64,000 nucleotides of DNA from Candidatus Brocadiaceae bacterium. GTDB taxonomy: Bacteria; Planctomycetota; Brocadiia; SM23-32. A model generated the notes under the pieces. That model worked only from the letters and a program-made list of their open reading frames with translations, was not told where the DNA came from and searched no databases. Location of the stretch: contig JAAYEJ010000059.1 in the NCBI GenBank assembly GCA_012728835.1, forward strand, positions 1 through 64,000, in the 5' to 3' direction. The position numbers and the translations under genes were made by a program. The first letter of the stretch is position 1. Each line of letters opens with the position of its first letter. Positions 61,286-62,521 of the stretch are shown piece after piece.

Positions 61286-62521
61286 ATGAGCGTTCCGTTC
61301 CAGCTTGCAGTTGCGGACGGGATTGGGGCCGGTGCTGGGGGCGTGCCGGCGGTCTTCGGGTCCCGCAGGACCCTGCTGAGCAGTCTTGGCCTGAGCGGGC
61401 TTCTGCTGCTGACCAGCATGCTGTTCGTGCGCAACCTCCCCGTGGGAGTCAAGATCTTCACGTGGGGGCTGTTCGCCTGGTCGCTCGTGGTGACTGCCTA
61501 CGCGGTCTTCACGTACGTGGCCGTGCGCCGGTCCGCTCACACGGTGGGCAACGGCATGACCGATCCGCTGACCGGCCTGCTGAACCGCAAGGGCCTCATC
61601 ACGGCCCTGGAGGAATACGATCTGGACGTCGAGCAATTCGGCCGGCGCGTGCGTCTCATCGACGTGGACCTGGCCAACCTGGACAGGGTCAACCACGAGT
61701 TCGGGCAGTCGATGGGCGACGTCGTCCTGCAGGACATCGCGGACCTGCTGCGCCGCACGGCGCCGGGCAGTGCGCTGGTCGGTCGGCTCGGGGGCGACGA
61801 GTTCCTGCTGGCTCTTCCGGGCGCGACGGACGCCGAGACCGATCGGCTGGCCGCGGCCCTGCGGGTCGCCGTGGCCGATTACTCGCTGAACCTCGGGGAC
61901 CGCGGCGAGGTCGGCGGGCTGAAGGCACACGTCAGCGTCGCGGCCTATCTGCCCGACCACTCGTCCCTGCACGAGACGGTCAGGTGTGCCAAAGAGGCCA
62001 GTGTTCACGGGCGCCTGCCCGACGGGGCAGGGCAGGCCGACGAGACGGCCTACCACGTGCCGCGTGTCACCCTCGGGGCCTTTGCCGTGCACCGATGGCA
62101 GAACCTGAGCGAGAAGGCGCGGGGCGGGTTCACGCTCTGGCAGCGGTCGCCCGCCGACGGCGAGTTCCTCGAAGCGATGGTCAGCGACATCGTGCGGATG
62201 CTCGACGGGAAGGCGGAGGTGCAGTGGGTGGACTTTGTGACCACCCCCCCGGCCGCCGGAACGCGCGTGACGCCCGGACGGCGTCTGGCCGAGGCCGTCG
62301 CGAAGCAGTTGGGCGTTCCCTATCGCGACGTGATGCGGGCCGACACGAGCGGCCCCGAGACGCGCAGCGTCGAGCCCGCCGTCGGCGCCTTCGTTGACAG
62401 GGGCGCCGGCGCGCTGTTGGTCACCGACGTGATCGGCTCGGGCATCCTGGAACGTCGCTGCGTCAGAAAGCTGTCCGCCGCCGGCGTCCGTGTCCAGGTC
62501 GCCGCCTGGGCGGCCTACTGA
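61286..62521 (+). CDS. Membrane GGDEF protein with phosphoribosyltransferase-like C-terminus
   Basis: A 411-residue protein with two N-terminal helices (about 31-49 and 54-78), then a GGDEF domain (about 90-240) with MTDPLTGLLNRKG and an intact GGDEF at 169-173, so it may make cyclic di-GMP; no RxxD inhibitory site precedes it. The last 140 residues, LGAFAVHRWQNLSEKARGG through LLVTDVIGSGIL (Asp381) to VRVQVAAWA, resemble a ComF-type phosphoribosyltransferase whose PRPP loop is degenerate (TDVIGSGIL instead of DDVITTGAT). ATG 61286 follows GGAGGGAGGG. The combination suggests nucleotide-sensing control of c-di-GMP and is unusual. Confidence 0.85.
   Translation: MSVPFQLAVADGIGAGAGGVPAVFGSRRTLLSSLGLSGLLLLTSMLFVRNLPVGVKIFTWGLFAWSLVVTAYAVFTYVAVRRSAHTVGNGMTDPLTGLLNRKGLITALEEYDLDVEQFGRRVRLIDVDLANLDRVNHEFGQSMGDVVLQDIADLLRRTAPGSALVGRLGGDEFLLALPGATDAETDRLAAALRVAVADYSLNLGDRGEVGGLKAHVSVAAYLPDHSSLHETVRCAKEASVHGRLPDGAGQADETAYHVPRVTLGAFAVHRWQNLSEKARGGFTLWQRSPADGEFLEAMVSDIVRMLDGKAEVQWVDFVTTPPAAGTRVTPGRRLAEAVAKQLGVPYRDVMRADTSGPETRSVEPAVGAFVDRGAGALLVTDVIGSGILERRCVRKLSAAGVRVQVAAWAAY

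Follow-up and report, generated by a model that had tools for sequence, protein, structure and literature searches.

What does a phosphoribosyltransferase (PRT)-like domain do at the end of a membrane GGDEF protein, and where did it come from? The question is raised by a gene near the end of the 64,000-nucleotide stretch of Candidatus Brocadiaceae DNA analysed here (hereafter the window; its source genome is G000). The open reading frame annotated at 61286-62521 (+) proved correct to the exact coordinates and translates into 411 codons, and its ATG start is preceded by the purine-rich GGAGGGAGGG, which resembles a ribosome-binding site. NCBIfam recognises the GGDEF half of the encoded protein alone. 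The features of the locus, with the evidence for each, are as follows.

61286-62521, +: whole gene, transmembrane (TM) hairpin, GGDEF domain and apparently ComF-derived pseudo-PRT domain, 411 aa (open reading frame and translation; same order in the G067, G068 and G069 homologues)
61361-61549, +: membrane hairpin, residues 26-88, two long helices (AF2 helices 19-47 and 53-86, pLDDT ~72; hydrophobic sequence; same position in homologues)
61559-61999, +: GGDEF domain, residues 92-238 (PF00990; alignment of 15 GGDEF proteins; Foldseek to diguanylate cyclases)
62045-62518, +: C-terminal domain (C-domain), residues 254-411, apparently a ComF-derived degenerate PRT without zinc ribbon (alignment A1, five members; profile comparisons)
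62054-62086, +: HVPRVTLGAFA, residues 257-267, 11 invariant residues at the position of the ComF zinc ribbon and first strand (five members)
62411-62449, +: degenerate PRPP motif ALLVTDVIGSGIL, residues 376-388 (PRT signature test; comparison with PMC9005727)
62635-62819, +: Gfo/Idh/MocA gene remnant, first ~34 and last ~23 codons (tblastn; intact orthologues in L012, L019 and L020)

The GGDEF domain and conservation of the fusion

The initial annotation described a membrane GGDEF domain with an intact motif and no inhibitory site (I-site), and our results agree. PF00990 covers residues 92-238 (E 7.3e-23, 81.6 bits vs a cut-off of 23.8) and TIGR00254 scores 78.8 vs a cut-off of 37.4; AlphaFold modelled this part at pLDDT ~80, and the Foldseek matches of the model were diguanylate cyclases (E 1e-11). 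When 15 GGDEF proteins were aligned, the window protein was seen to keep the Mg-binding Asp128 together with Asn136, Asp145 and Lys236. The GGDEF motif itself is intact (residues 169-173, 61790-61804), and the domain has no I-site, the RxxD position reading PGSA. The residue after Lys236 is not Arg, i.e., the window protein has lost the arginine at position R446 in PleD numbering. By these residues the protein is likely to have diguanylate cyclase activity, which may be weak because of the lost arginine. The hairpin topology would place both the GGDEF domain and the C-domain in the cytoplasm.

Five GGDEF proteins and one HD-GYP protein were found in the window genome. No EAL or PilZ protein was found there, which weighs against the reading of a controlled c-di-GMP output proposed below. 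The same genome encodes a second TM-hairpin GGDEF protein (L033; C19:54632-55102) that carries GGDDF and an Asn at the Mg Asp position and is probably degenerate.

The fusion is present in four genera, all from a single planctomycete family (genomes G000, G067, G068 and G069), always with the GGDEF domain followed by the PRT-like domain, as had been proposed from the window alone. The initial annotation had named a lack of homologues with the fusion as grounds for refutation, and this did not apply. The G068 and G069 copies each lie in two pieces on separate contigs, the ends of which share overlapping sequence. G067 carries a second copy (L017:4376-5719, -) ~12 kb from the live one, and the GGDEF domain of this paralogue is dead in the alignment of 15 proteins (GPGEF, Mg Asp changed to Ala). 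The other four proteins keep the Mg Asp, Asn, Asp and (G/A)GDEF, the G068 member having AGDEF. An assembly error was considered and rejected, as three further genomes and the paralogue show the same fusion. The G067 fusion gene matches PUMJ01000050.1, from a Candidatus Brocadiaceae MAG, and that of G069 matches JAUVVP010000156.1; a scan of GTDB contigs returned two loci only, which are the genes already in G067 and G069. No member was found in five other genomes of the family (67-87% complete), which gave weak matches only, including their own ComF genes, nor in viral contigs, nor, apart from the window itself, in 392 genomes drawn evenly from the phylum. Searching the rest of the class with the full protein gave GGDEF matches only. 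A TM hairpin and GGDEF domain without the C-domain is common in the same family.

Of the two halves, the C-domain is more conserved: among the family's few and closely related members (n = 5), the pairs having both domains show identities of 0.69 vs 0.60, 0.68 vs 0.65 and 0.52 vs 0.35 for C-domain vs GGDEF. Nei-Gojobori dN/dS values, which are rough owing to GC bias and near saturation at synonymous sites, are ~0.28 (C-domain) and ~0.38 (GGDEF) between the window and the first G067 copy, and ~0.43-0.55 and ~0.74-0.83 in comparisons with the G067 paralogue. The C-domain is under stronger constraint than the GGDEF domain, and the fusion is kept by selection in four genera.

Ancestry of the C-terminal domain

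The last ~140 residues had been aligned by eye to ComF-type PRTs. Pfam places the last 161 residues below threshold in Pribosyltran (E 0.088, 12.6 bits vs a gathering cut-off of 26.3), and this family is the best Pfam match in all five members, each time sub-threshold (best E 0.0034). When the five C-domains were made into a profile (A1) and this was run blind on the 392 phylum genomes, 56 genomes gave matches. Of the ten strongest that were checked, eight were ComF-type proteins carrying both Pribosyltran and DZR_2 (the latter sub-threshold in one), one had Pribosyltran alone and one was a PRPP synthetase. Because these first ComF sequences had been chosen by the A1 profile itself, we gathered a separate, independent ComF set with TIGR00201. 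Comparison of the C-domain with this set by hhalign gave 95.3% (score 58.5 over 135 columns); the highest score among 100 column permutations was 24.9, and the reversed profile scored 12.3. An HGPRT-like set gave 2.9% against the C-domain profile. These results bear out the alignment by eye and, at the level of sequence profiles, make the domain look ComF-derived and not generically PRT-like. We regard the identity of the protein and its ComF ancestry as very probable.

Most of the hhalign score lies in the last 32 columns (the PRPP-motif half alone scores 46.8 vs 58.5 for the whole), as might be expected of a family-specific domain that shares one strand-loop-helix with ComF by chance. Structure-based searches could be read in the same way. 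AlphaFold with five- and seven-row alignments modelled the C-domain at pLDDT ~40, and in these low-confidence models the order of strands and helices fits a PRT while Foldseek found nothing below E 0.3. Apart from a malate dehydrogenase (E 0.03) that we judged to be a chance match, a profile search of PDB sequences gave OPRT only (E 1.3, not significant, in register at the PRPP motif). However, the C-domain upstream of the PRPP motif, taken alone, scores 27.8 in register with ComF, and none of 200 permutations exceeds 21.5. The resemblance is therefore not due to the PRPP loop alone, and the Pribosyltran matches extend to every member. The permutation controls (100 + 200) led us to reject a chance resemblance to ComF, and we consider a domain outside the PRT superfamily very improbable.

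In a tree with ComF, the branch leading to the C-domain is 3.4 substitutions per site long, and the donor lineage was not placed. The window genome also carries a separate, normal ComF with a zinc ribbon, so the C-domain does not replace ComF there.

The altered PRPP pocket

The PRT signature (PROSITE PS00103) matches 26 of 27 ComF proteins and none of the five fused C-domains, and the same proportions hold for the ComF loop LLVDDVxTTGxT (26/27 vs 0/5). The first acidic residue is replaced by Ser or Thr in every member (T380 in the window), whereas the second acid is kept (D381). The turn reads SSG, GSG, TSG or RSG across the members, i.e., its Ser and Gly (Ser385 and Gly386 in the window) are retained. 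Two residues after this Gly, all five have Leu (L388 in the window) where PRTs have Thr. The PRPP loop had been called degenerate for the loss of an acidic residue and of the TTG turn; the first loss holds throughout the family and the second holds only in part, Ser and Gly having been kept. The loss of the Thr to Leu is more telling than the change in the turn. In Helicobacter pylori ComFC, for which a PRPP-bound structure exists (motif LLDDIITTGTTL, residues 155-166), a T165A substitution abolishes nucleotide binding while ssDNA binding and membrane location are unaffected (PMC9005727), and T165 aligns to the C-domain Leu without gaps.

Other ComF elements are missing as well. The RGFNQ of the PPi loop and the T..Q and N of the flexible loop are absent from the C-domain, and both loops are shorter. 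No zinc ribbon was detected among the five members, either as a DZR_2 match or as a Cys pattern in A1, and the invariant stretch at residues 257-267 occupies the site where ComF has it. The C-domain resembles ComF/ComFC (TIGR00201; DZR_2 + Pribosyltran) in its 135-column profile homology, its order of elements and a PRPP motif near the C-terminus, but differs in lacking the zinc ribbon, in its short PPi and flexible loops, in its changes from [DE]D to [ST]D and from TTGxT to xSGxL, and in being joined to a TM-GGDEF protein in genomes that also carry a normal ComF.

These changes bear on the sensor that the initial annotation had proposed, in which the C-domain would perhaps sense PRPP, (p)ppGpp or purines and thereby act on the cyclase. 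PurR is a precedent, as its non-catalytic, purely regulatory PRT pocket senses PRPP and (p)ppGpp (PMC8789054), and the predicted cytoplasmic location of the C-domain and its retained Asp381, Ser385 and Gly386 would be consistent with such a role. However, none of the five members has the first acidic residue or the TTGxT threonine, substitution of the matching threonine by Ala is what abolishes nucleotide binding by H. pylori ComFC (PMC9005727), and RGFNQ and the flexible-loop residues are gone. With two pocket side chains lost in every member, sensing through the canonical pocket is disfavoured. The proposal is not supported by our data and we consider it unlikely, although the C-domain might possibly bind some phosphate or nucleotide because the second acid, Ser and Gly are kept. 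An active phosphoribosyltransferase, as ComF ancestry taken alone would permit, has a close to negligible probability, since no member matches the signature and each lacks two ligand-binding side chains.

Proposed roles and gene neighbourhood

Our main reading is that the gene encodes a membrane-anchored, diguanylate cyclase-type protein with a dead, ComF-derived pseudo-PRT as a putative regulatory module (probability of the combined statement, roughly 0.48). For the regulatory mechanism as such, we put the chances at somewhat short of even. The pseudo-PRT, kept by selection, would have lost the canonical handling of PRPP or nucleotides and would serve as a module for dimerisation, for partner binding or for an altered ligand. 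By joining two GGDEF domains or keeping them apart, it would set c-di-GMP output; dimerisation is assumed here by analogy with PRTs and diguanylate cyclases. On a protein without an I-site, the C-domain might take over the control role of product inhibition. The sequence of the paralogue, with its dead GGDEF domain and conserved C-domain, suggests a separate interaction role that the C-domain has retained. A bolder version, which we offer only tentatively, is that the pseudo-PRT is a dedicated control domain of a membrane diguanylate cyclase that answers an altered small ligand or a partner protein, that in one paralogue it has outlived the activity it controlled, and that regulatory domains associated with GGDEF thereby gain a new class.

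The paralogue is also consistent with signalling in the opposite direction, in which the GGDEF domain, active or dead, would sense GTP or c-di-GMP and the C-domain would be the effector. The C-domain of this copy is still 52% identical and more constrained than its dead GGDEF domain, and in all pairs the C-domain is more conserved than the GGDEF domain. Yet the four other proteins keep their Mg Asp, Asn, Asp and (G/A)GDEF, and no effector partner was identified; we regard this direction as an unlikely though credible one.

The control module of our main reading can be set against several known systems. The window protein shares with PleD, DgcB and SiaD (PF00990/TIGR00254) a GGDEF domain and most active-site residues, but lacks the I-site and the R446 equivalent and carries a pseudo-PRT C-terminal to the GGDEF domain. 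The proposed likeness to the Bacillus PRT-fold regulators PurR and PyrR is a PRT fold that serves regulation and not catalysis alone; PurR, however, binds PRPP or ppGpp in a kept pocket, whereas the window family has lost pocket side chains and has a GGDEF domain as its partner. PRTase and GGDEF domains both occur in the multidomain polyvalent proteins of phages and plasmids, and one PRTase group among these shares a conserved Arg with ComFC (PMC5512222). Those PRTases keep the DD motif, and the part of that source considered here mentions no two-domain GGDEF-PRT protein (PMC5512222). The initial annotation knew of no family with this domain order; similarly, we found no GGDEF-PRT protein in the open-licence literature, and the pairing of GGDEF with the PRT superfamily is apparently undescribed. 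GGDEF proteins are told apart by their fused partners, among which a PRT-superfamily partner would be new, and the family would join the few PRT folds that have become regulators (PurR, PyrR). The live and dead GGDEF domains of G067, which carry the same conserved tail, form a natural pair for studying the role of a pseudo-PRT after loss of nucleotide binding.

Finally, the gene neighbourhood bears on ligand and function. The order glyA - fusion - Gfo/Idh - CDP-alcohol phosphatidyltransferase - ffh is common, in whole or in part, to the window, G068 and G069. Aside from the one-carbon gene glyA upstream, no purine or PRPP genes were seen beside any copy; aside from uvrC two genes from the paralogue, no competence genes were seen beside any copy; and no RNA families were found near the gene. 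A C-domain that retains the ssDNA binding of ComFC at the membrane could link c-di-GMP to DNA uptake or damage, and H. pylori ComFC is indeed membrane-localised and binds ssDNA even when nucleotide binding is abolished (PMC9005727). However, the C-domain has no zinc ribbon, and its neighbours (Gfo/Idh, URO-D, glyA and ffh) are, with the exception of uvrC, not of this kind, which makes a DNA-binding role highly unlikely.

Gfo/Idh lies directly 3' of the fusion in G067 and G069, and the gene after the G068 fusion, like the one after the G067 paralogue, belongs to the URO-D family. In the window, the Gfo/Idh/MocA gene after the fusion is a pseudogene, with ~840 bp missing and the frame changed (tblastn). 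G070, a genome without the fusion, has a normal ComF that is separated by a single histone-deacetylase-like gene from the linked Gfo/Idh orthologue (L139:3792-6835), which is possibly a hint at how the fusion arose, or a coincidence.
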